Assembly: GCA_028277405.1 (NCBI GenBank)
Contig: JANQGH010000054.1
Coordinates: 1 to 64,000, forward strand
Direction: 5' to 3'
Source of the DNA: Alphaproteobacteria bacterium
Lineage (GTDB): Bacteria > Pseudomonadota > Alphaproteobacteria > DSM-16000 > Inquilinaceae
Length of the DNA stretch: 64,000 nt
Position 1 is the stretch's first letter; each line of letters starts with the position of its first letter. A program made the translations under genes and the position numbers. The notes under the pieces are model-generated. The model ran no database searches, was not told the DNA's origin, and was given only the letters and a program-made list of their open reading frames with translations. Positions 2,120-51,222 of the stretch are shown in pieces.

Positions 2120-3681
2120 ATGACTCTCAACCTAATCACGGATGCCTGGATCCCGGTACGCACGCACGATGGGGCGCGGCGGGTGGTTCGGCCGGACCAG
2201 ATTGCCGAGGCTGAGATCGCCCGGCCGGATTGGCCGCGGGCCGACTTCAACCTGGCCTGTTACGAGCTGCTGATCGGGCTGGTCTTTCTCGCCGATCCGC
2301 CCGAGGACGAGGCGGATTGGCGGGACCGGCGTGCCCCGGACCCCGGCCGGCTGCGCGCGGCGCTGGCGCCCTTGGCGCCGGCCTTCAATCTGGGCGGTGA
2401 GGGGGACCGGTTCCTGCAGGACCGGGAGGATCTCGACACCGCCGCGTCGCCGGTCGACATGCTGTTCATCGATGCCTCCGGCGGCAACACGGCGAAGAAC
2501 AACGCCGACCTGATGGTCAAGCGCGGCCGCTACACCGCGCTTCCCGCGCCGCTGGCGGCGATGGCGCTGTTCACCTTGCAGGCCCAGGCGCCGTCCGGCG
2601 GGGCCGGCAACCGGACGTCGATGCGCGGCGGCGGCCCGCTGATCACGCTGGTCGAGCCCGCTGATCGCGCCGGCCCCGATAATAAGGCATCGTCGCCCCT
2701 GTGGGACATGGTGTGGGCGAACGTGCCGGCTGGCGAACCGCTGCTGGACACTGCCTCGCCAGACCGGCTGCGCGACGCGCTGCCCTGGATGCGGCCGACG
2801 CGCACCTCGGAGAAAGGCACCAACCCGCTGCAGCCGCCGGGCGATGACGACCTGGCCCTGGCCGAGACGTTCTTCGGCATGCCGCGCCGGCTGCGGCTGG
2901 ATTTCGCCGAGGATGACGACACCCTGGTCGTCGGCGTGCGCCAGCGCCCCTATGGGACAAATTATGGGCTTTGGACTCACCCACTCACGCCGTACTACCG
3001 GCAGAAGCCAGGATCGGAACCGCTGCCCGTGCACCCCAGGCCGGGCATCGGCAGCTATCGCAACTGGGCCGGCATCGCGTTTGAGGAACATGAAGGCCTG
3101 CGTCATGTGGCGCAGGTCGTTGCCGACTGGCACGATCGCCGGCCAGACGGGGTGATGGCCAGCCTGCATGTCGGCGGCTGGGCCATGGACAACATGAAAC
3201 CGCGCGATTTCCTGTGGTCGCGCCAGCCGCTCTATCCCCTCAATGACGAAGGCGAGCAGGCGGCCGTGGCGCTGGTCCAGGCGGCCAATGCGTTTTCCTT
3301 GGCGCTGGCCGGCGCCATGCAGACGCTGGCCAAAGCCGCCAGCATGGACGCCTCCGCCGTGGAACCGGTGCGCGAGGCGTTCTACGCCGACACGCAGGTC
3401 GATTTCGAGCGCATGCTGGGCCGCCTGGCGGCGGGCGAGGCGCTGGCCAAGGTCGCGCAGGACTGGGTCAAGACCCTGCGGCGCGCGGCGTTGCGTCTGT
3501 ATGACGAGCGCGCGGTGCCCGGCCTGGGCGAGCGCCGGCTTGAGGATACCCAGGCCATCATCGAGGCGCGTGGCCGGCTCAAGGCCGCCTTTTCCGGCTG
3601 GGGGCCGAAAACCGGGCAGGCAGCCTTCAAGGCGCTTGAGCTGCCACTACCGAAAAGACGCGCCAGGAAAAGAGAGGCCGC

Positions 3682-3685
<4 letters not shown>
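2120..3685 (+). CDS. casA: Cas8e (Cse1/CasA), large subunit of type I-E Cascade
   Basis: The Cascade large subunit, which recognises the PAM, helps unwind target DNA and recruits Cas3. The protein of 521 residues begins MTLNLITDAWIPV, the typical Cse1 start. It contains the family's FNLACYELLIGL region near residues 45-56, the FLQDRE segment near 97, and a GGxGNRTSMRGGGP stretch near residues 158-170. Its length is normal for the family (about 500). It begins the co-directional block cas8e-cse2-cas7-cas5-cas6e-cas1-cas2, in which most junctions overlap, so it is probably the first gene of a polycistron. The SD is weak (TAGG, 9 bases before ATG). Confidence 0.95.
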
Positions 3686-6062
<2,377 letters not shown>

Positions 6063-6066
<4 letters not shown>

Positions 6067-6905
6067 CGCTCTATTTCTCCCGCCTGACGCTGCGGCGCGA
6101 CCCGTCCACCGAGGCGCTGGGCCGGCTGATCAATCCAAGCCAGAGGGCGCTGGCCATGGATGCCCATCACCGCCTCTTGTGGTCGGTGTTTTCCGACGGC
6201 GCCGACAGAACGCGGGACTTCCTGTGGCGGGCGGAAGCGCGCGGCCGGTTCTACACCCTGTCGGCCCGGCCGCCGAAGGACCATAACCATGGCCTGTTCG
6301 AACCGCCGGAGGTGAAGGAGTTCGCGCCCGCGCTAGCGCCGGGGGACCGGCTTGCCTTTCAGCTCCGCGCCAACGCGGTGACGCAGCGGCCGAAGGACCC
6401 GAACGACCGCTCCGCGCCCAGCAAGAACCATCCAAAAGGCCGCGTGCGCAGCCGCAAGGTCGACGTCGCCATGGATATCTTGAACCCCATTCCGGGGCGC
6501 AGCGCGTCGACGTCGCCGGGCAGCGGCAATGAGCCGAGCGAGCGCCAAAGGCAACGCTACGACCTCGCCCGACAGGCGGCCTATGACTGGCTGTCGCGCC
6601 AGGGCGACGCCCATGGCTTCAAGACCGACCCGCTGCCGGGCCCGGACGATGACCGAGACCGACAGGCGGGTTTCGTGCTGGAGCATTACGGGACCGTCGC
6701 GCTGCCCAGCCATCGCGGCAAGCGCAAGGGCGAGCCGCGCTTCGGCGTGTTCGACATGCGGGGCATCCTGACCGTGACCGACCCGGATGCCTTTCTCGAC
6801 AAGCTGGCGCGCAAGCTCGATGCGCCGCCCGAGGACAGCCAGCGGTCCGGCTTCGGCCGCGCCAAATCCTTCGGCTGCGGCCTGATGCTGATCCGGCGAG
6901 CCTGA
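6063..6905 (+). CDS. casE: Cas6e (Cse3/CasE), crRNA-processing endoribonuclease
   Basis: Cas6e cuts the pre-crRNA 3' of the repeat hairpin and stays bound to it. The start is ATG 6063, overlapping the cas5 stop; an open frame back to 5997 is inside cas5. The protein has 280 residues, longer than the roughly 200-220 usual in the family. An inserted segment rich in Gly, Ser, Pro and Arg lies around residues 118-170. Seen are MDAHHRLLWSVFSD near residues 33-46, carrying the His region used in catalysis, and the C-terminal glycine-rich motif GFGRAKSFGCGLMLI. The conserved 6-bp repeat stem fits its substrate. Confidence 0.92.
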
Positions 6906-6908
6906 GTA

Positions 6909-8160
<1,252 letters not shown>

Positions 8161-8209
8161 CTCCAGCCTGCTTCCAAAAACCATTCTATTTCAGTAGATT
8201 ACGGCAAGC
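8161..8209 (+). promoter_or_regulatory. CRISPR leader (short, A+T-rich)
   Basis: The 49 bases between the cas2 stop and the first repeat are distinctly A+T-rich, for example CCAAAAACCATTCTATTTCAG. They sit at the conserved-repeat end of the array, so this is the leader end. No clear IHF consensus or promoter was found. The leader may extend into the cas2 3' end, or the array may be co-transcribed with the cas operon, which runs in the same direction. Confidence 0.6.
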
Positions 8210-10982
8210 CTGTTCCCCGCACGCGCGGGGATGAACCGTCTTACCGCGTGCCGCGCGGCGGAGACGTGAGCTGTTCCCCGCACGCGCGGGGATGAACCGT
8301 TGGCCAAGGAATCGGTCTCCCTGTCGATGGCCTGTTCCCCGCACGCGCGGGGATGAACCGGCAGTCGCAAAGGCCGCTGGTGATCTTGAAGGCTGTTCCC
8401 CGCACGCGCGGGGATGAACCGAAACAGCTTCACTGGCAATCCAATCCATCTTGCTGTTCCCCGCACGCGCGGGGATGAACCGCCGGACGAGTTCTATGAG
8501 GCCGTCGAGCGCTACTGTTCCCCGCACGCGCGGGGATGAACCGGGGGAGGCCTCAAAGAGCGATCGCTGAACGATCTGTTCCCCGCACGCGCGGGGATGA
8601 ACCGACCCGGGGCTAATCCCGATCGCCGATGCTGGCCTGTTCCCCGCACGCGCGGGGATGAACCGATCCCGTAGGGCCGGCCGTCGGCCCGGCGTCACTG
8701 TTCCCCGCACGCGCGGGGATGAACCGCGTCCGGGTCGTCGACCCGCGACATTCTGCATCTGTTCCCCGCACGCGCGGGGATGAACCGTGTGCTGATGGTC
8801 ACGGCCTCGCTGGCCATCACTGTTCCCCGCACGCGCGGGGATGAACCGGTTATCCGACGTGCTGGGCACGCTGGCGCTTGCTGTTCCCCGCACGCGCGGG
8901 GATGAACCTGGTCGATGGCGTCTATCGGCCGTACCGAAACCCTGTTCCCCGCACGCGCGGGGATGAACCGGCATGGCGGCCTTGGTGCCGGTGGAACACC
9001 AACTGTTCCCCGCACGCGCGGGGATGAACCGGACGATCATGGGCACGCCCAGGCGCTTTTGCACTGTTCCCCGCACGCGCGGGGATGAACCGTTCGCTGG
9101 CGTTGTGGAGTTCGCGATTGACGTCTGTTCCCCGCACGCGCGGGGATGAACCGCATCTTCATCGTCATGATCATCATCAGGATCGCTGTTCCCCGCACGC
9201 GCGGGGATGAACCTTGACACTGGTCAATGACGGCCGCCTTGGCCTGCTGTTCCCCGCACGCGCGGGGATGAACCGGACGAGCCAGCCCCGCCACAGCCGG
9301 ATGCTGCCTGTTCCCCGCACGCGCGGGGATGAACCGTCAGCGGGATTGGCCAGCGAGATCACGCTCGCCTGTTCCCCGCACGCGCGGGGATGAACCGACA
9401 TGGTCAGGGGGTATTGCTGGCGTCCTTGGCTGTTCCCCGCACGCGCGGGGATGAACCGCAGTGGAGGTGCGGCCAATGGTCCTTACCGCGCTGTTCCCCG
9501 CACGCGCGGGGATGAACCGGCCACGAGCCGATAGAAGGCGCGCGCATCCGTCTGTTCCCCGCACGCGCGGGGATGAACCTTGATCAGGTAATCAACGGGG
9601 CATTTCAACACCCTGTTCCCCGCACGCGCGGGGATGAACCGCCGATACGGCGTTACAGCGTTTCACAAGGCGCCTGTTCCCCGCACGCGCGGGGATGAAC
9701 CGTGCCGGACCCGAGTTCGGATGGCGACAACTCACTGTTCCCCGCACGCGCGGGGATGAACCGTCATGCCGCTTTCCCCTTGCGCGGCGGCCAGACTGTT
9801 CCCCGCACGCGCGGGGATGAACCGTCGCCGAACGCTTGCTTCCATCGATTGGTGAGCTGTTCCCCGCACGCGCGGGGATGAACCGAGGTTCCGGGGAAGT
9901 AATCCCAGCACCTTTTTCTGTTCCCCGCACGCGCGGGGATGAACCGACGCTGGACGAGTTCCTGAAGACCAAGCGCGTCTGTTCCCCGCACGCGCGGGGA
10001 TGAACCGAGGCCTTCGCTCAGCGAGGGCACCACGTCGAGCTGTTCCCCGCACGCGCGGGGATGAACCGGTCGGCGCGGCGCTTCAGTTCACCGACGCGAC
10101 CTGTTCCCCGCACGCGCGGGGATGAACCGTTGCCCGCCGGAACCTCATCGGTGTGGCCAAGCTGTTCCCCGCACGCGCGGGGATGAACCGGCGCTCAACC
10201 TCGTCGTCGAGGCGATCCAAGGCTGTTCCCCGCACGCGCGGGGATGAACCGGCCGCGGCCGATCGTGAGATAGGCCAGATGAACTGTTCCCCGCACGCGC
10301 GGGGATGAACCGGTTCTTCGAATCAAGCTCCCGCTGGCGTTGTCCCTGTTCCCCGCACGCGCGGGGATGAACCGACCTGGCGCTGGAAGCGGGGCGACAC
10401 GGACGCCTGTTCCCCGCCCGCGCGGGGATGAACCGACTGCTATGGCGGAGGTGATGATGGTGTTGGTCTGTTCCCCGCATGCGCGGGGATGAACCGACCG
10501 CGATGGCTGAGCCCAAGCAGCTGCCGTGCCGTTCCCCGCCCGCGCGGGGCTGAACCGTTATGGTAGCTTTGGCCACTGCGGGCGTTTGTTCGTTCCCCGC
10601 CCACGCGGGGATGAACCGACGACTGACGCGCCGGATCTGGAAGCGCTGGTCCGTTTCCCGCAGACGCGGGAATCAACCGAACGGCAAGACCGAGTTGGCG
10701 GCCGGGATTGCCAGTTCCCCGCGCGCGCGGGGATGAACCGGATGCCTTGCGGGGCTACACGCCGCGCGACCCCCGTTCCCCGCACGCGCGGGGATGAACC
10801 GATGGTCGTCGTCTGCGAAGGCGAGATCGACACCCGTTCCCCGCCCACGCGGGGATGAACCGGACTTTTCGAATGGTCTTGATCGGCGGCGTTTCCGTTC
10901 TCCGCGCGCGGGGATGAACGGCTGTCCTCAATTGTGACGACGTTGTCCTCCAGCCGCTCCCCGCCCACGCGGGGATGAACCG
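8210..10982 (+). CRISPR. Type I-E CRISPR array, 46 repeats and 45 spacers
   Basis: Repeats of 29 nt start CTGTTCCCCGC, have loop ACGC and end GCGGGGATGAACCG; spacers are 32 nt, giving a 61-base period from 8210. One spacer (10313-10345) is 33 nt. Repeats 1-36 are identical in the core. From repeat 37 (10407) onward they decay in the 5' dinucleotide, the loop and occasionally the stem, so the trailer is on the right and the leader beside cas2. Repeat 45 (10895-10921) is 27 nt. Three repeats (at 8881, 9186 and 9552) end in T instead of G at position 29. The long minus-strand ORFs across the array are artefacts of the repeats. Confidence 0.98.
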
Positions 10983-43001: not shown

Positions 43002-43757
43002 ATGTTAGAGGCACGGGGGCTGACGGCCGGATACGGCGGCGGCCGCATCATCGTCGACGGCGTCGACATCGACGCGCGCGCCGGCGAGGTGGTGACCATC
43101 ATCGGCCAGAATGGTGCCGGCAAGTCGACCCTGCTGAAGGGCATTTTCAACATGGTGCCGGTGCGCCGGGGCAGTGTGAGCCTGGACGGCGCGGAGGTCT
43201 TCGACCAGCGGCCCGACCGGCTGTTGGCCGGCGGCCTGGCTTACATTCCGCAAAACCACAGCATCTTTCCCAAGCTGACCGTGGCGGAAAACCTGCGCAT
43301 GGGCGGCTTTCTCCTGCGCGACCAGCGGCTGCTGGTCGAACGGATCGGCGAGGTCGAGGCCATGTTCCCGATCCTGGTGGAACGGCGCGACGAATACGCG
43401 GCGGGCCTGTCGGGCGGCGAGCAGCGCATGCTGGAAATCGCCCGGACGCTGTTGATGGCGCCCAAGGTCATCATGCTGGACGAGCCGTCCATCGGCCTGG
43501 CGCCGCGCCTGGTCGACCAGGTCTTCCAGACCGTGCGCACGCTGGCCGAACAGGGCAAGGCCATGCTGATGGTCGAACAGAATGTCAAAAAGGCGCTGGC
43601 CGCGTCGGACCGGGGCTATGTGCTGGAGTTGGGTCAGGTGAAGCTGCACGACCGCGCCGACCGGCTGCTGGCCGACGACCGGACCGCGCAGCTCTATATG
43701 GGCGCCAGACCGGGTGGCACGGCCCCATCCGCCGAGGCGCCGGAGGGTCGGCCATGA
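43002..43757 (+). CDS. livF: Branched-chain-type ABC ATPase (LivF)
   Basis: The second ATPase, 251 residues. It has Walker A GQNGAGKSTLLKGI, the LivF-specific GLAYIPQNHSIFPKLTVAENLRMG, signature LSGGEQRMLEIARTL and Walker B IMLDEPSIGLAP. It begins 13 bases after livG and overlaps the ligase gene (ATGA). The C-terminal segment after LYMGA is Pro/Gly-rich. Confidence 0.94.
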   Translation: MLEARGLTAGYGGGRIIVDGVDIDARAGEVVTIIGQNGAGKSTLLKGIFNMVPVRRGSVSLDGAEVFDQRPDRLLAGGLAYIPQNHSIFPKLTVAENLRMGGFLLRDQRLLVERIGEVEAMFPILVERRDEYAAGLSGGEQRMLEIARTLLMAPKVIMLDEPSIGLAPRLVDQVFQTVRTLAEQGKAMLMVEQNVKKALAASDRGYVLELGQVKLHDRADRLLADDRTAQLYMGARPGGTAPSAEAPEGRP

Positions 43758-45154
43758 CCGAACACGAGGACGGCTTCGTCCACGACCTGCCGTTCCGGCC
43801 ACGCGCCGAGATCGAGGCGCTGCAGGCGCGCCGGTTGAGCCGGACCCTCGACCTGGTATTCGACCGCCATCCGGTCTATCGCCGCCGCTATGAAGAGGCC
43901 GGACTGACGCGCGCCGACATCCGCGGGCCGGAAGATCTGTGGAAGCTGCCGGTGACGGTGAAGCGCGACCTGGCCGCCGATCCGGAGGGGTTTCGGCTGG
44001 AGACCGAGGGGTTGGAGCCGGAGGCCCAGGTCGCCTGGGACGTGATGCACACGACCGGCACGACCGGCGGCAAGCCGACGCCATTCTACTCCACCGCTTG
44101 GGACTTCTACGGCATCCTGACCGCCAACCGGCGCGCCTTGGAACTGCGCGGCGTCGGGCCGGACGACATCATCGCCAATCTGTGCCCGCTGACGCTCTAC
44201 CCGTACGGCGCCTATCATCGGACCATCGCGGCGGCGTCGGCCATGAAGATCCCGGTGGTCAGCTTGCTGCCCGGCCGGCCGTCGCCGCACTTCCACTGGT
44301 CGGCCGGCCTGGACGAGGTCGTCGACGGCGTGGCCCGCACGGACGCGACCATCCTGTGGGGCGTGGCCAGCTATGTCCGCCGCGTGATCCTGCGCGCGCA
44401 GGAGCTGGGCGCCGATTTCAGTGCCGTCGCCCATGTTTTCGTCACGGGCGAGCCGGTGTCCGAGCCGTTGCGCACGGACATGACCGAACGGCTGGAGGCG
44501 ATCGGCGCTCGCTCGCCCCGGGTCAGCATTTCCTATGGCGCCACCGAGATGCAGGTCGGCACCGTGGAATGCGTGCCCGGCAGCGGCTATCACAATCCCG
44601 CCCCGGACGAGTTTCTGTTCGAAGTGGTCGACCCGCACGACCATCGGCCGGTGGCGGAGGGCGAGCGCGGCCTGGTCGTGGTGACCCACCTGAACCGGCG
44701 CGGCACCGTCCTGGTGCGTTACCTCTTGGGCGACACCAGCCGGCTGACCACGGCAACCTGCCCCGAATGCGGCGCGAACACCGACCGCTTCGTCGAGCTG
44801 CCGAGCCGGGCCGACGATCTGGTGAAGATCCGCGGCATGCTGGTCGACCCGGCAGTGCTGGTGAACGCCCTGTCCGGTCTGGGCCTGGCCGAATACCAGG
44901 TCGTGGTCGACCGGGAACGCGCCGACGACCCGCTGTCCATGGACCGCCTGACCGTGCGCGCCGCACCCGCCCAGGGCGACGAGGCCGGCGACGCCCTCGC
45001 CGGACGAATCGCGGCGGCGGTGAAGTCCGCCATCGGCGTCCGCCCGGAGGTCACCTTCGCCGATCCGTCCGCGATCTGGGACCCCAACGCCAGCGCGAAA
45101 TCACGGCGGTTTGTGGATGCAAGGTTGGACGGGCGCAGGCTGAATAGGCGCTAG
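43754..45154 (+). CDS. Phenylacetate-CoA ligase-like adenylating enzyme
   Basis: An ANL-superfamily enzyme of the PaaK type, 466 residues, expected to activate an acid as acyl-AMP and then acyl-CoA. The P-loop reads HTTGTTGGKPTPFYST near residues 97-112, ISYGATEMQ lies near 255-263, and the hinge region RADDLVKIRGMLVDP near 353-367. CPECG near residue 336 is a PaaK-typical cysteine pair region. Overlaps livF by ATGA, so it closes the transport operon. It probably activates the imported acid; aromatic or short aliphatic substrates are both possible. Confidence 0.87.
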   Translation: MTEHEDGFVHDLPFRPRAEIEALQARRLSRTLDLVFDRHPVYRRRYEEAGLTRADIRGPEDLWKLPVTVKRDLAADPEGFRLETEGLEPEAQVAWDVMHTTGTTGGKPTPFYSTAWDFYGILTANRRALELRGVGPDDIIANLCPLTLYPYGAYHRTIAAASAMKIPVVSLLPGRPSPHFHWSAGLDEVVDGVARTDATILWGVASYVRRVILRAQELGADFSAVAHVFVTGEPVSEPLRTDMTERLEAIGARSPRVSISYGATEMQVGTVECVPGSGYHNPAPDEFLFEVVDPHDHRPVAEGERGLVVVTHLNRRGTVLVRYLLGDTSRLTTATCPECGANTDRFVELPSRADDLVKIRGMLVDPAVLVNALSGLGLAEYQVVVDRERADDPLSMDRLTVRAAPAQGDEAGDALAGRIAAAVKSAIGVRPEVTFADPSAIWDPNASAKSRRFVDARLDGRRLNRR

Positions 45155-45607
45155 CCAGCGGGGCGTGCCCCGAGCGCGAACGGTGACAATGTCGGTCTCG
45201 ACGGCGAATTGCTAACGGCCGTGTCGACGCCGCTTCAGTCGGGTTCGGGCGAATCGGCCGTCAGGCCCAGCAACCGTTTGCAAATGGCTGTTGGGAGTGT
45301 TTCAGTTCGAAGTTGATAGATAGGGCTCAGCACTGGGCCGCAAAGTCGGGTTGACTTCGGCACACTTGCTGACACACGTAACACACGCGAAGCGGGCACA
45401 AAAAAAAGGCGACGACACCAAGATGGTGCCGCGCCACATTCTTCACGCGACGATTAACTGCCAGCTCAACAAGCTAACATGTTGTGACAATACTAGCGAC
45501 GGTACCGTTGGTGCCGTCCGTCCCACAACTCCCCGGCCCTAGACGTCGGCCTCACTCACTGAGCTGGCAGCAATGATGCATCAGGTCAAAAACGCGTCGA
45601 GCAGACG
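45155..45607. other. A+T-richer interval with hairpins and a possible small ORF
   Basis: After the CoA ligase, base composition drops. A tight CGGGG-CGTG-CCCCG hairpin lies at about 45158-45171. There is an A8 run at 45400-45407 and a 9-bp hairpin GACGGTACC/GGTGCCGTC at 45498-45518. The only ORF with any interest is 45423-45542 (listed separately). No tRNA or transposon end was recognised, although a tRNA-less island boundary is plausible here. Confidence 0.4.
45423..45542 (+). CDS. Possible small Cys/Thr-containing ORF (39 aa), uncertain
   Basis: ATG 45423 opens 39 codons ending at a TAG; an in-frame TTG at 45351 would make 63. The peptide contains TINCQLNKLTCCDNTSDG, with three Cys among several Thr and Ser. 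It has no LxLQ leader motif and a poor SD (AAGG 13 bases upstream). It may be chance. It is noted because it lies next to a lanthipeptide synthetase locus and is cysteine-rich. Confidence 0.2.
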   Translation: MVPRHILHATINCQLNKLTCCDNTSDGTVGAVRPTTPRP

Positions 45608-45616
45608 TCAGCTGCT
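45588..45616 (-). terminator. Weak terminator at the end of the lanthipeptide precursor gene
   Basis: On the minus strand, AGCAG/CTGCT arms (45616-45612 and 45604-45600) form a 5-bp stem overlapping the stop codon. They are followed after 7 bases by T5 (45592-45588). Stem strength is low. Confidence 0.3.
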
Positions 45617-45772
45617 GATCTTTTCGCAGATCATCTCCGACGTTTGGCTTAGCGGACCCTGTCCAACATGCCTTGAAACGTTCGCTACCTGCGTGCGAAT
45701 CGCAGCTTCGTGGTCCGTGTTCACATCGAACAACTGAAGGTCGAGCACCGACATGTGAGCTTGATTGGCCAT
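45608..45772 (-). CDS. Class III lanthipeptide precursor peptide (LanA), 54 aa
   Basis: A 54-codon gene divergent from lanKC. ATG 45772 follows AGGGG with 8 bases spacing. The leader contains SVLDLQLFDVNTDHE (residues 8-22). VLDLQ matches the conserved LanKC-binding motif of class III leaders (LFDLQ in RamS, LLDLQ in CurA), followed as usual by acidic residues. The C-terminal part carries PLSQTSEMICEKISS (residues 40-54), with Ser42-x2-Ser45-x3-Cys49. That is the S-x2-S-x(2-5)-C pattern that LanKC enzymes turn into labionin or lanthionine. Ser53, Ser54, Ser33, Thr27 and Thr44 are further dehydration candidates. No mature-peptide activity can be read. Confidence 0.8.
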   Translation of the reverse strand: MANQAHMSVLDLQLFDVNTDHEAAIRTQVANVSRHVGQGPLSQTSEMICEKISS

Positions 45773-45810
45773 TGATACTTCCCCTAAGTTTGCTAGAAGT
45801 GCACAAAATT

Positions 45811-45839
45811 TGTATTGCAGTAGGGTCTAAGCATGTCAC
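45811..45839 (-). promoter_or_regulatory. Tentative promoter of the precursor gene
   Basis: On the minus strand, GTGACA (45839-45834) lies 17 bases upstream of AATACA (45816-45811), with TACAAA overlapping. Both are weak hexamers, but they sit in the right place, about 40 bases before the precursor ATG, in A+T-rich DNA. Confidence 0.3.
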
Positions 45840-45888
45840 GCAGTTAATTCTCTGGCGAGGGTTTTTGGCGAATGCTGTTGCGCAAATG

Positions 45889-45938
45889 TCACAGTGATCT
45901 GTGAGCTTGCCTGAAGCACTCACCAAATTGCGATTTGG
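45889..45938. promoter_or_regulatory. Two palindromes upstream of lanKC
   Basis: TCACAG-TGAT-CTGTGA (45889-45904) and CCAAAT-TGCG-ATTTGG (45923-45938) are each perfect 6+4+6 inverted repeats. They lie in the 194-base region between the divergent precursor gene and lanKC. They are candidate binding sites for a regulator of the cluster. No regulator gene is adjacent. Confidence 0.5.
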
Positions 45939-45966
45939 CAATAGCTGACATGCGGGCCTCCATAAA

Positions 45967-48555
45967 TTGAATAAATCATACGAACTATACTGTTTTGCTG
46001 ACCCATTCTTTTTTGACACGCCAGCGAATGTCTCGGAATCCGAGGAATTTGATGCTACGCGGCGATCACCGCCCAGCGGTTGGTGCCGCATTGAGTCTTC
46101 CGACTGGGTGGAATTTCGCCCGGATCTGACCCAGTTGCCGTCACAGGGCTGGAAGGTTCATGTATCGGCCACGGCGGAGAATGCCGAAGGGGTTCTCGAT
46201 CACGTTTGGGATTATTGCATCGACTGGTCCCTGACGTTCAAGTTCATACGCAACCGGCTAATCATGCTGTTTCAGAACGGCAAGTCTGCCGATCGTGGGG
46301 CAAGCGGTAAGTTCGTCACGATCTACCCTCGGGACGAATCAGAACTGGAGCGTGTCCTTCGCGAGCTTGGGAGTGATCTCGAAGGGCAGCACGGACCCTA
46401 CATTCTCAGCGATCTGCGTTGGGGACAGGGGCCATTGTATGTCCGCTATGGCGGATTTGCCGCCCGGCGACTTGTTGCGCCCAATGGTGAGCTGGAACCG
46501 GCAATTGAGGACCCCTCAGGGAAGCTGATTCGCGACGAGCGTCGACCGACCTTCCAACCTCCCCCTTGGGTCAAGCTGCCCGGTTTTCTCCAGCCCTGCC
46601 TGGCAGCTCGACGCAGCGTTACATTCGACGGCATCCCTTACCAAATCCAAGAAGCCGTCCACTTCTCGAATAGTGGCGGCATCTATCGCGCTGTTGATGC
46701 TCACAGCGGCAGGCAGGTCGTGCTTAAGGAAGCGCGGCCCTTTACATCGCCTTTGGCCGACGGAACAGACGCGGTTGCCCGGCTTGATCGCGAACGGCAG
46801 GTCTTGGAGAGACTCTCCGGGCTCAAAGTGGTGCCGGAACATCGCGACTACTTTGTCGCGGGTGAGCATCATTATCTGGTCCAGGATTTTGTCGAAGCGC
46901 CGACCCTCAACACCGTATTTGTCAGGCAGGTTCAGCTTGTGAACCCTGACACGACAGCGTCGGAACTGGCCGCTTACACGAAGTGGGCCATGGATATGTG
47001 CCGGCGCGTCGAGCACGCGGTCGGCCTAGTCCATGAACGCGGCGTCATTATCGGTGACATAAGCGCGTCAAATGTCCTGGTGAAGGACGACGGAGATATT
47101 GTCCTCATTGACTTTGAGGCGGCCACGTTCGCGGAGGAGGGGAAGCGTTCGACACTGGCTACGGCGGATTTTCGGACCCAAGGTGATCTCAGCGGTTTCG
47201 ATATCGACCATAACGCCTTGGCACTCCTGCGCATTTTCATGTTTCTCCCGCTGACAGCGCTGATCAGGCTGGATGTTCGCAAGGCGGCGCAGTTGGGGGC
47301 AGAGATCGTTAAGTTGTTTCCGGTTGAACCGGGTTTCATCGAAGAAGCCGTCACCACAATTGCGGGGGCGGATACGGCATCCGACACGCAGCTTCAAGAC
47401 CGGCTTGATGGTCTCTTGGACAGTGGCTCGTGGCCTGAACTGCGTGACACGTTGGCTCGTGGCATTTTGGCAAGCGCGACTCCCGAAAGGGACGACCGTC
47501 TCTTTCCCGGAGATCCGGAGCAGATGAAACCCGGCGGGGGTATCAACCTTGCGAACGGTGCCGCCGGGGTTCTCTACGCGCTCGCGGCCGTCAATGCGGG
47601 CCGTTATCCTGAGCACGAGGATTGGCTCGTCACCCAGACTCTGCGGCAGCAAGATCGCTGTCCGCTTGGGTTTTACGACGGACTGGCCGGCATCGCCTTC
47701 GCCCTGGACCGTCTTGGGCGTCAGGACGACGCCTATCGAATTCTGCAAATCTGCACCGATCGTTTAGAAGAGATTATGGCCGATCCCCGCGTTGGTCTTT
47801 CAAGCGGTCTCGCCGGTTTCGGTCTTGTTGTCGATCATTTTGCGACCGCCAGCGGTGATCAGAGGCTTCAAGAAATATCGGGCGATATCGTTGAACGCGC
47901 CGTCGACCGCCTCGGTGAGGTGGACGAAGGAGTGCGGGTCAGTGGTGGCGACAACCCCTACGCAGGGCTGTTCCGCGGATCGTCGGGCCTGGCCATGCTG
48001 TTTCTGCGTTGGTTCGAACGCACCGGCGATCGCGCTTGGCTCGAAAAGGCCCGAACCGCGATCTGGCGGGATTTGCAGCACTGCGCCGAAACGCCGGATG
48101 GCAGCCTGTTTGTCGACGAAGGCTGGCGAATTACGTGCTATGTCGCAGAAGGCAGCGCTGGAATCGGTATGGCTATCGACCATTTTCTTCGTCATGAGGC
48201 CGATGAGGCGCTGGCCAAAAAGGCTGCGGCCATCTCGCGGGTGGCAAGGTCAAAACTCTATGTGTTCCCCGGGCTGTTTTGGGGCCGTTCAGGCATGATC
48301 CTTTATCTTGCCAATGGCTATAAAGGATCTGGCCCGCCAGACGATCCGGTAATCACCGAGCAAGTGCGCTACCTTTCATGGCATGCCTTTCTTCATGAAG
48401 GAGAACTGACGTTCCCCGGCAGTACGCTGCTGAGGTTCTCCATGGATTTCGCGACCGGTACCGCTGGGGTTCTTCTCGCTCTGGGCGCTGCATTGCATGA
48501 CCGCTCTATTTCCCTGCCCCTTTTCGGCGTCGCGAACGGCAAGGCCGGTAAATGA
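45967..48555 (+). CDS. lanKC: Class III lanthipeptide synthetase (LanKC)
   Basis: A three-domain enzyme that phosphorylates, dehydrates and cyclises a precursor peptide. TTG 45967 is the first start after an in-frame stop and gives NKSYELYCFADPFFFDTP, the usual LanKC N-terminus. Residues 1-200 are the lyase domain (GKFVTIYP, GPYILSDLRWG, LYVRYGGF). Residues 225-480 are the kinase: VVLKEARP (Lys253), GDISASN (Asp364, Asn369) and LIDFEAA (Asp382). Residues 515-855 are LanC-like (GFYDGLAGIAFAL, GLFRGSSGLAMLFLRW, GLFWGRSGMILYL). The LanC zinc Cys-Cys-His is absent, indicating class III rather than class IV. Less G+C-rich than its neighbours. Confidence 0.93.
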   Translation: MNKSYELYCFADPFFFDTPANVSESEEFDATRRSPPSGWCRIESSDWVEFRPDLTQLPSQGWKVHVSATAENAEGVLDHVWDYCIDWSLTFKFIRNRLIMLFQNGKSADRGASGKFVTIYPRDESELERVLRELGSDLEGQHGPYILSDLRWGQGPLYVRYGGFAARRLVAPNGELEPAIEDPSGKLIRDERRPTFQPPPWVKLPGFLQPCLAARRSVTFDGIPYQIQEAVHFSNSGGIYRAVDAHSGRQVVLKEARPFTSPLADGTDAVARLDRERQVLERLSGLKVVPEHRDYFVAGEHHYLVQDFVEAPTLNTVFVRQVQLVNPDTTASELAAYTKWAMDMCRRVEHAVGLVHERGVIIGDISASNVLVKDDGDIVLIDFEAATFAEEGKRSTLATADFRTQGDLSGFDIDHNALALLRIFMFLPLTALIRLDVRKAAQLGAEIVKLFPVEPGFIEEAVTTIAGADTASDTQLQDRLDGLLDSGSWPELRDTLARGILASATPERDDRLFPGDPEQMKPGGGINLANGAAGVLYALAAVNAGRYPEHEDWLVTQTLRQQDRCPLGFYDGLAGIAFALDRLGRQDDAYRILQICTDRLEEIMADPRVGLSSGLAGFGLVVDHFATASGDQRLQEISGDIVERAVDRLGEVDEGVRVSGGDNPYAGLFRGSSGLAMLFLRWFERTGDRAWLEKARTAIWRDLQHCAETPDGSLFVDEGWRITCYVAEGSAGIGMAIDHFLRHEADEALAKKAAAISRVARSKLYVFPGLFWGRSGMILYLANGYKGSGPPDDPVITEQVRYLSWHAFLHEGELTFPGSTLLRFSMDFATGTAGVLLALGAALHDRSISLPLFGVANGKAGK

Positions 48556-48571
48556 CCGAGCAATCGGCGTC

Positions 48572-48643
48572 ATGCGGGTATTGATCATGTTCCCGACTTG
48601 CGCTTGGGACCAAACCGCGTGGCATTGGTTCGTCCAATCATGA
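48572..48643 (+). CDS. Possible 23-residue ORF coupled to the ATP-grasp gene
   Basis: ATG 48572 opens a short peptide (MRVLIMFPTCAWDQTAWHWF...) rich in Trp, whose TGA overlaps the ATP-grasp ATG (ATGA). There is no strong SD. It could be a coupling ORF, a substrate peptide or chance. Confidence 0.25.
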   Translation: MRVLIMFPTCAWDQTAWHWFVQS

Positions 48644-49608
48644 TTGTCATGATCACCACCCGTGGGAACGGATACACGCTGCGCACCTTGGCCAAAGGCA
48701 CTTTCGGAGTTCCCGTTCCGACATTCCGCCTGACGCACTACGAGCGACTGCTGCGGTGCTGGCACGTCCCCCGGGCAACCTATATCTTTGGTGACATAGA
48801 AAGACTTGCGCCTTGGGAGTTGCGGCTCGCCGCCGATCTTTATCGGTCGATGACGGAAGCGGGGCTGCGCTGTCTGAACGATCCCGCGCGCGCGCTGTCG
48901 CGGCTGGCTCTTCTCAGGGGCCTTCATCACGCCGACATAAACCCCTTCAACGCCTATCGAGCGGATGAGCAGCCGAGGCCTGAGAGGTTCCCGGTGTTCG
49001 TGCGGCATGAGGACGATCACCTGCGCGCCGCAGCTGATCTTTATCATGACCAGGACGAGCTTGATCGTGCGTTAGCCAAGCTGGCGAACAGCGGGCTGCC
49101 GCTCCGCGGTATGCTGGTTGTCGAGTATTGTCCGGCGCCTTATCGCGAGGGCCTCTGGGCGAAGTGGGGTTCCTGGCGCATTGGGGACGCGGTCTTTGTC
49201 GACCATCTGGTCGTGGACGATACCTGGCTGGTGAAAGTAGGAGACCCGGCGAAACTGACCGAGCAGGAGAAGCGCGACGAGCGCGATGCACTTGACGCCA
49301 ATCGCTACGAAGGCCCCGTCGGCCGCGCGTTCGAGGTCGGTGGCATCGATTTCGGTCGCGCCGATCACGCGGATATCGACGGGCGTCCGGTCATCTACGA
49401 AATCAACACAAACCCCTTCACGCCTCGGTTCACGCCCGGACCCAATCCTGCGGCTTCGGAAACCACAATGAAGATCCGCAAACGCTTCTCCGAAGCGCTC
49501 GAGGCGATCGACACGCCGGCCGGCGGTCGGGTCAAGATCGCGCCGACGCCGCGCCGGCGTCCCATCCGCTGGTGGCGACCGGGGTTCGTGACGCCGCGGA
49601 GGCCGTGA
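48640..49608 (+). CDS. ATP-grasp-like protein next to LanKC
   Basis: A 322-residue protein with ATP-grasp features. The N-terminal MIVMITTRGNGYTLRTLAK and PRATYIFGDIERLAPWEL precede PVFVRHEDDH near residues 116-125. MLVVEYCPAP lies near 157-166, and the C-terminal metal/ATP segment is GIDFGRADHADIDGRPVIYEINTNPF (in parts), where YEINTNP is the Mg-binding Glu/Asn pair. Such enzymes ligate carboxylates to amines or thiols. ATG 48640 is preferred; TTG 48598 would extend it. It lies 84 bases after lanKC on the same strand. A tailoring role on the lanthipeptide is possible but unproven. Confidence 0.75.
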   Translation: MIVMITTRGNGYTLRTLAKGTFGVPVPTFRLTHYERLLRCWHVPRATYIFGDIERLAPWELRLAADLYRSMTEAGLRCLNDPARALSRLALLRGLHHADINPFNAYRADEQPRPERFPVFVRHEDDHLRAAADLYHDQDELDRALAKLANSGLPLRGMLVVEYCPAPYREGLWAKWGSWRIGDAVFVDHLVVDDTWLVKVGDPAKLTEQEKRDERDALDANRYEGPVGRAFEVGGIDFGRADHADIDGRPVIYEINTNPFTPRFTPGPNPAASETTMKIRKRFSEALEAIDTPAGGRVKIAPTPRRRPIRWWRPGFVTPRRP

Positions 49609-49689
49609 TCCGCGCCTGTGTGCGATGTCTCCTCGCGTCGGGCGGCATTGGGCACTGAACCGCCGTCGGGGGAGCCTTGGCGGCCTCGG

Positions 49690-51222
49690 TCAGGCCAAAC
49701 CGGGCATGAGGCGACTTACTTCAACGGCCTGGCTGGGCGACCGTCCATCCCTCTCCAGGATCCGACGCACAATGTCCGGCCGGTCGGTGTTGATGATGTC
49801 GGGGCGGTGGGTGAGGGCGTGGGCGATGGCGGCGGCATCGTTGCCCAGGGCCCAGGCCATGATCTGGGCGCCGGCCGCGCGGCATTGGTCGATCTCGGCC
49901 TGGTTCAGCTCATCCGGCAGGAACTGGACGATGGCGGCCCGCCAGGCGTTGAGCGCTTCGTTCAGGGTGGCGACATCCGTGCGGGGGATCATGATCCTGA
50001 GATCGTCGCCCTGGTCGCGAAGGGCGCGCAGCAGGGCCGGGTCGTCCGCCCAGAACATCGTGCGGTCGACCAGCTTGCGCGCCCGCACCTGGGCCACGAT
50101 GGCGGCCGCATCGGCCTGTTTCACTTCGACGTAGATCCCCTTGCCTTTCGGCACGGCATCGAGAAGGGCGGCCAGGGTGGGCACCGCTTCGCCCCGGTAC
50201 CACGGGTCGAACCCGCCGCCCGCGTCGAGCGAGCCGACCTCCGCGTCGCTCATCGAAGACACCGGTCCGGAGCCGTCCGTGGTGCGGTCGACCGTGGCGT
50301 CGTGCATCAGCACCGGCGTGCCGTCCGCGGTGGTGCGCACGTCGATTTCGACGATGTCGACACCTTGGCTGTAGGCGGCGGCCGCGGCGGCCAGGGTGTT
50401 TTCCGGCGCGATCGTGTTGGCGCCCCGGTGACAGCAGATCAGGGGCCGGCCCTCCGCCGGGTCGGCGCGGTAGGGCTGGACCCGCTCCGGCTGGTCGCTG
50501 CAGATGCCCAGGACCGGCATCGCCACCAGGTCCGCCAGGATGGCGGGCCGTTCCTCGTGCCAGGTGATGATGTCGAGATCCTCGGCGGCGGCGCGGGCGA
50601 TCAGGTCCGGCGTCAGCAGGGTCTGAGGGGTCGGCGAGGCGTGTTCCCAGCAGGGGTGGATCATGTCCAGGGTCGTCCGTGCCGCCAGCGCGAACGGGTC
50701 GGCGCCGACCGACACCAGGATCGACAGGGGCAGGGGGCAACCCGCGCGGTGCAGCCGGTCGATCGCGGCGGGGTCGCGCTCGCCCAGCACGGCGTCGTCG
50801 AAGCCTCTTCGATCGAGCAGGCCGAGCGATGCTTCGCCGGCATCGGGCGATTTCAGGTCGAGATAAAGGGCGGTGCCGGTGTCCCGCGCCAGATCGATCA
50901 CCTGGTCGAGCGACGGCACCGTGCCGCCGGTGGCCAGGGGTACCTTGGCAAGATCGGCCCAATCCGTGTCGGCAATCGCGTCGTCGATGCCGGCCAGGCG
51001 GCGCAGGCGTTCGTCATGGCAGGCCACGGGCACGCCGTCGCGCGTGACCCGGACATCGACCTCCCACATATCCGCGCCCAGCAGGGCGGCGCGGCGGAAG
51101 GCGGTCAGCGTATTCTCCGTGGCGTAGGCGCTGGCGCCGCGATGGGCGATGGACAGCGGCCGGCCCTTGGCCTGGCGCCGCGCGCGCAAGCGCTCGACGA
51201 CGCGGCGCGCCTCCGCCCTCAC
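49690..51222 (-). CDS. Glycerophosphodiester phosphodiesterase with two tandem GDPD domains
   Basis: Hydrolyses glycerophosphodiesters to glycerol-3-phosphate and an alcohol. The 510-residue protein has two GDPD barrels. The first (about 20-245) has SIAHRGASAYATENTLTAF, WEVDVRVTRDGVPVACHDERL and YLDLK. The second (about 255-500) has ICCHRGANTIAPENTLAAA, VEIDVRTTADGTPVLMHDATVDRTTDG, then YVEVK and DIINTDRPDI. Both keep the HRG, ExxPENT-like and ExD elements. Tandem fusion is unusual; single domains are about 250 residues. It overlaps the ABC ATPase stop, so it belongs to the transporter operon. Confidence 0.88.
   Translation of the reverse strand: MRAEARRVVERLRARRQAKGRPLSIAHRGASAYATENTLTAFRRAALLGADMWEVDVRVTRDGVPVACHDERLRRLAGIDDAIADTDWADLAKVPLATGGTVPSLDQVIDLARDTGTALYLDLKSPDAGEASLGLLDRRGFDDAVLGERDPAAIDRLHRAGCPLPLSILVSVGADPFALAARTTLDMIHPCWEHASPTPQTLLTPDLIARAAAEDLDIITWHEERPAILADLVAMPVLGICSDQPERVQPYRADPAEGRPLICCHRGANTIAPENTLAAAAAAYSQGVDIVEIDVRTTADGTPVLMHDATVDRTTDGSGPVSSMSDAEVGSLDAGGGFDPWYRGEAVPTLAALLDAVPKGKGIYVEVKQADAAAIVAQVRARKLVDRTMFWADDPALLRALRDQGDDLRIMIPRTDVATLNEALNAWRAAIVQFLPDELNQAEIDQCRAAGAQIMAWALGNDAAAIAHALTHRPDIINTDRPDIVRRILERDGRSPSQAVEVSRLMPGLA

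Follow-up and report, generated by a model that had tools for sequence, protein, structure and literature searches.

A probable class III lanthipeptide cassette with a divergent precursor gene and an ATP-grasp neighbour in an alphaproteobacterium

Introduction

Class III lanthipeptides are well documented from Actinobacteria, Firmicutes and Myxobacteria (PMC12328550). A comparison of Lysobacter also lists a LanKC synthetase with a class III lanthipeptide (PMC10745450). The precursors carry an LxLQ-type leader motif, and the Sx2Sx3C motif gives rise to lanthionine in some peptides and to labionin in others (PMC7268733). In a large survey, 55% of the class III precursors lacked annotation (PMC7268733), so a missed small gene is typical of these systems.

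The closest described systems are the SapB/AmfS-type clusters of Streptomyces and relatives, in which the precursor gene lies 3' of lanKC on the same strand, with genes for two ABC transporters and for a response regulator after it. We compared 49 actinobacterial loci, two of which are one record. In 48 of them, we found a precursor of the LDLQ or LDMQ type directly 3' of lanKC on the same strand, and in the two that are fully annotated, the next genes encode two ABC transporters and one response regulator. Graspetides and other ATP-grasp RiPP systems provide a second comparison, as they have an ATP-grasp-type ligase gene near a RiPP precursor gene.

Here, we describe a locus in an alphaproteobacterial window, the whole stretch of 64,000 nucleotides that was analysed. 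A preliminary description of this locus called class III systems mainly actinobacterial. This is correct, but Firmicutes, Myxobacteria (PMC12328550) and Lysobacter (PMC10745450) cases exist, and the present host shares with them a LanKC outside Actinobacteria (PMC7268733, PMC12328550, PMC10745450). Given these precedents, class III outside Actinobacteria is not itself new. We found no report of an alphaproteobacterial class III lanthipeptide in the open-access papers searched. The novelty lies in the alphaproteobacterial host, together with a minimal cassette of divergent layout and its ATP-grasp neighbour. Relative to the preliminary description, the new points are a low-GC, probably imported island, an organisation unlike that of the actinobacterial relatives and the ATP-grasp gene after lanKC.

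Results

The lanKC gene (45967..48555, + strand) encodes a class III lanthionine synthetase of 862 residues and has a TTG start that lines up with the Met of its relatives. As the preliminary description had proposed, the LanKC is complete: the RamC_N, kinase and LanC-like domains are all present at full length, and the protein scored 991.6 bits against the equivalog model NF038151 (cut-off 575). The class IV model NF038150 gave 378 bits (cut-off 650), and a class IV (LanL) identity was ruled out by this score. The solved class III synthetases 8sao, 8sap and 9ugq align across most of the protein. Judged from the sequence, the class III assignment of the locus is firm.

Of 116 columns that are invariant across 48 actinobacterial LanKCs, 108 are kept. 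Conserved catalytic residues were found for both the kinase (Lys254, Asp364, Asn369, Asp382 and Glu384) and the N-terminal domain (Lys63, His65, Arg151 and Arg160), whose roles we assume by analogy with kinases and LanC proteins in general. By these kept residues, the synthetase looks active. Ser366 replaces a nearly invariant His of the relatives. The LanC-like domain had been described as being without zinc ligands, and this held for two of the three positions, where Phe771-Trp772 stands in place of the Cys-His pair. It did not hold for the first position, which has Cys724 (codon 48136-48138) in place of the Pro found in the other 49 aligned LanKCs. The zinc-ligand positions are those we assume from general knowledge of LanC. 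Despite the lone Cys724, the domain has no Cys-Cys-His zinc site.

The precursor peptide gene (45608..45772, - strand) lies on the opposite strand from lanKC, across a divergent intergenic region of 194 bp (45773..45966). It encodes 54 residues, MANQAHMSVLDLQLFDVNTDHEAAIRTQVANVSRHVGQGPLSQTSEMICEKISS, with a leader that begins MANQAHMSVLDLQLF... and contains VLDLQ, an LxDLQ form of the LxLQ-type motif. The core, SQTSEMIC, has the arrangement S42-x2-S45-x3-C49. An SD, AGGGGA (45780-45785, - strand), stands 7 nt 5' of the ATG in the upstream sequence AGGGGAAGTATCAATG. The coordinates, strands, peptide and gap, the good SD and both motifs were all as the preliminary description had given them. No sigma-70 consensus promoter was found in 45773..45966, and no known RNA element was found at the locus. 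A terminator-like hairpin with a T run (45412..45432, - strand) lies 3' of the gene on its strand, and two such hairpins were found in the region against 1.1 expected from shuffling.

The 54-residue peptide is a class III-type precursor outside the RamS (SapB/AmfS) subfamily as curated. It scored 16.7 bits against RamS PF19402 (E 0.01), below the curated 24.3 bits, and 15.4 bits against SapB/AmfS NF033212 (E 0.015), below the curated 25 bits. When all 101 contigs of the genome (6.2 Mb) were scanned with the RamS profile at E values up to 10, the peptide was the top of two matches, spanning model positions 1 to 43, and it is encoded 194 bp from the sole LanKC of the genome. This genome-wide scan yielded no RamS-like ORF 3' of lanKC as an alternative substrate. 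The pairing of motifs was also searched for in all six frames of 259 kb of host DNA, using an LxDLQ-type motif near the ORF start followed by an S/T-x2-S/T-x(2-4)-C core, and 45608-45772 was the only occurrence. When the 812-bp intergenic stretch was shuffled 4000 times (first order), 0.025% of the shuffles gave the strict pair and 0.25% gave a loose one. The profile scores are weak, and it is the position beside a lone LanKC together with the uniqueness of the motifs that argues for more than chance.

The locus resembles the SapB/AmfS-type clusters in having a LanKC of the same equivalog family, with 50% identity to that of Streptomyces sp. KN37, an LDLQ leader and the S-x2-S-x3-C core found in most of them. 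In contrast to those clusters, the precursor gene is upstream and divergent, the core has one Cys, no exporter is found in the vicinity and the gene after lanKC is an ATP-grasp gene. The core also lacks the hydrophobic look of actinobacterial cores. This look, the single Cys, the divergent layout and the missing exporter count against the pairing, as do the sub-cut-off scores of the peptide and Ser366 and Cys724 of LanKC.

Only the host genome itself had a LanKC in the class sample (1/385, over the cut-off), among relatives (1/61), in the phylum sample (1/398) and in the order (1/17). These samples overlap, giving a total of fewer than 850 Pseudomonadota genomes, and no second genome with LanKC was found among the approximately 800 searched. 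Among actinomycete genomes, 41 of 247 have one. The closest LanKC, at 50% identity, is on the Streptomyces sp. KN37 plasmid (NZ_CP139046), and the next best show 46-49%. In a tree restricted to actinobacterial sequences beside our own, the protein was sister to that of KN37 (100/98), and its branch was long, at 0.88 changes per column.

The precursor, lanKC and ATP-grasp genes lie together in a 4.5-kb low-GC island (45155..49610; 58.6% G+C). Over approximately 45.15 to 49.6 kb, the G+C content drops with sharp edges from about 70% to 50-62%. The island is lower in G+C than both the host and actinomycetes, suggesting a donor of lower G+C, and the cassette was probably acquired laterally. No convincing sign of insertion, whether a tRNA or flanking direct repeats, was found at the island. 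It is flanked by genes for a PaaK-like adenylating enzyme (43754-45154) and a GDPD with a long N-terminal part (49690-51222), and branched-chain amino acid and sugar-type uptake ABC systems are also found around it. Neither flanking gene had close homologues in 11 genomes of the same family (E up to 1e-30). With few or no close family homologues of these genes, no empty site could be demonstrated. No exporter or leader protease was evident near the cassette, and the island also contains no regulator.

Two other explanations for the island's setting were considered and set aside. A contaminating contig is unlikely, as the flanks agree in tetranucleotide composition with the remainder of the genome (0.88-0.96) but not with actinobacterial LanKC loci (0.42-0.75). 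Viral carriage was rejected because no relative was found in viral contigs. Elsewhere in the window, an apparent CRISPR-Cas locus (2120-10968), presumably of type I-E, was seen as a gene row (2120-8160) followed by a repeat array whose translation reads as repeated 'RFIPARAGNS/SPRVRGT'.

The third gene of the island (48640..49608, + strand) begins 84 bp behind lanKC on the same strand. The ORF opens at a TTG at 48598, and the ATG at 48640 lines up with the starts of homologues and is the likely start. No Pfam or NCBIfam model matched the product. It shares with its homologues the aligned motif GRxDx(11)EINTNP, in which Arg254, Asp256, Glu268, Asn270, Thr271 and Pro273 are invariant in 12 family members. 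The pattern R-x-D ... E-x-N-T-x-P is the C-terminal metal/ATP motif of ATP-grasp ligases. A profile of the homologues weakly matched D-Ala-D-Ala ligase (E 0.011) at the same place as this invariant block, and a single-sequence structure model had a mean pLDDT of 31, too low to show the fold. We take the product to be a putative ATP-grasp ligase of an unnamed family and a candidate tailoring enzyme. In contrast to graspetides, this ligase has no Pfam or NCBIfam match, and the peptide has no evident graspetide core motif of repeated Thr/Ser/Lys and Asp/Glu.

The family was found in 5 of 385 alphaproteobacteria and on two plasmids, from Deinococcus and Paracoccus, and the host genome has two further paralogues. 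One paralogue follows, after a gap of 23 bp, the gene of an alpha-ketoglutarate HExxH peptide beta-hydroxylase of family TIGR04267 (contig C66; L121:8524-9594, 9617-10945). Upstream of this row is a 48-residue ORF, MKRSLETLKSEEAVAVAEVAATVRRGELDKNKAVIASGLGKNGHLRTP (L121:11073-11219, - strand). Together, these three genes are a probable second RiPP locus of the same genome. HExxH enzymes of the TIGR04267 kind are RiPP-tailoring enzymes (PMC12636437). In another alphaproteobacterium (G341, L138:6626-9936), two copies of the ATP-grasp gene flank an HExxH hydroxylase gene and a 78-residue ORF with the repeat SLKEGKPxGPxRF. A further genome (G182, L142:6189-9387) has an HExxH hydroxylase gene beside a cyanophycin-synthetase-like ATP-grasp gene and a precursor-like ORF. 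The precursor-like ORFs of G341 and G182 both have repeated GK-x(2,3)-G motifs (SLKEGKPxGPxRF and VGKxxG, respectively), and the two loci may represent an undescribed alphaproteobacterial RiPP type. Exactly one TIGR04267 gene was present in the host genome and one in G341. None was present in four members of the host's family that lack the ATP-grasp gene, or in two other genomes that have it. Several other copies of the ATP-grasp gene have no RiPP gene beside them. An association with RiPPs is therefore likely for some of the family's members, and for the gene at 48640-49608 it is plausible.

Discussion

We infer that LanKC and the 54-residue peptide probably form a pair within a class III lanthipeptide cassette of lateral origin. 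Following established class III chemistry, LanKC would bind this peptide, encoded divergently from it, at the LDLQ-type leader, its kinase domain would phosphorylate core Ser/Thr residues and its lyase domain would then eliminate the phosphate. The zinc-less LanC-like domain would cyclise at Cys49 by Michael addition, and the product would have one ring, either labionin or lanthionine, across Ser42-Ser45-Cys49. Since no gene for leader removal or export is evident nearby, both steps would depend on unlinked host functions. The system is presumed to be active in the cell. As a conjecture, the ATP-grasp ligase may act on the same core or on the C-terminus of the peptide.

It is possible that the ATP-grasp gene encodes a tailoring ligase for the same peptide. 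The product would then be a RiPP of hybrid type, in which a class III lanthipeptide is also modified by an ATP-grasp enzyme of an undescribed RiPP-associated family, which might make a side-chain ester or amide or add an amino acid. We hold this reading tentatively, with the balance leaning somewhat against it. Another possible explanation, with little short of an even chance, is that the gene is an unrelated passenger, for example from surface polysaccharide metabolism, which would leave a class III lanthipeptide with no further modification. The Paracoccus homologue sits among O-antigen and glycosyltransferase genes, the copies without a nearby RiPP gene fit such a role, and the family is absent from all the actinobacterial LanKC loci examined. 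Against this, the gene and lanKC share a low-GC island and a strand, separated by only 84 bp, and at two other loci members of the family stand next to a RiPP hydroxylase gene and precursor-like ORFs.

That LanKC and a precursor-like peptide are neighbours by chance is unlikely. In this case, LanKC would be genuine, the 54-codon ORF accidental and the real substrate elsewhere or lost, an explanation to which we give a small probability. The sub-threshold HMM scores of the peptide are in keeping with it, as is an arrangement that differs from that of the actinobacterial relatives, where the precursor is 3'. It does not readily explain why the best RamS match of the genome should be 194 bp from its only lanKC, with a good SD and start and with no other RamS-like ORF 3' of lanKC, or why the motif pair should be unique in 259 kb when 0.025% of shuffles produce it. 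It is very improbable that the cassette is a decaying import whose genes are intact through recency alone and yield no product: its presence in one genome of the 17 in the order, the absence of an exporter and protease, and Ser366 and Cys724 at otherwise near-invariant positions would suit such decay, but the frame of 862 codons is unbroken, and 108 of the 116 invariant columns and the catalytic residues are kept despite a branch of 0.88, which argues against neutral decay unless most of that branch was run in the donor.

The pairing of LanKC with the divergent precursor would extend class III lanthipeptides to an alphaproteobacterium, in the form of a minimal cassette without an exporter of its own, and it provides a precursor-enzyme pair that is ready for co-expression. 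If the ATP-grasp enzyme acts on the same peptide, this would be a new modification for lanthipeptides and would assign a role to a so far unannotated family of ligases found repeatedly beside RiPP hydroxylases.
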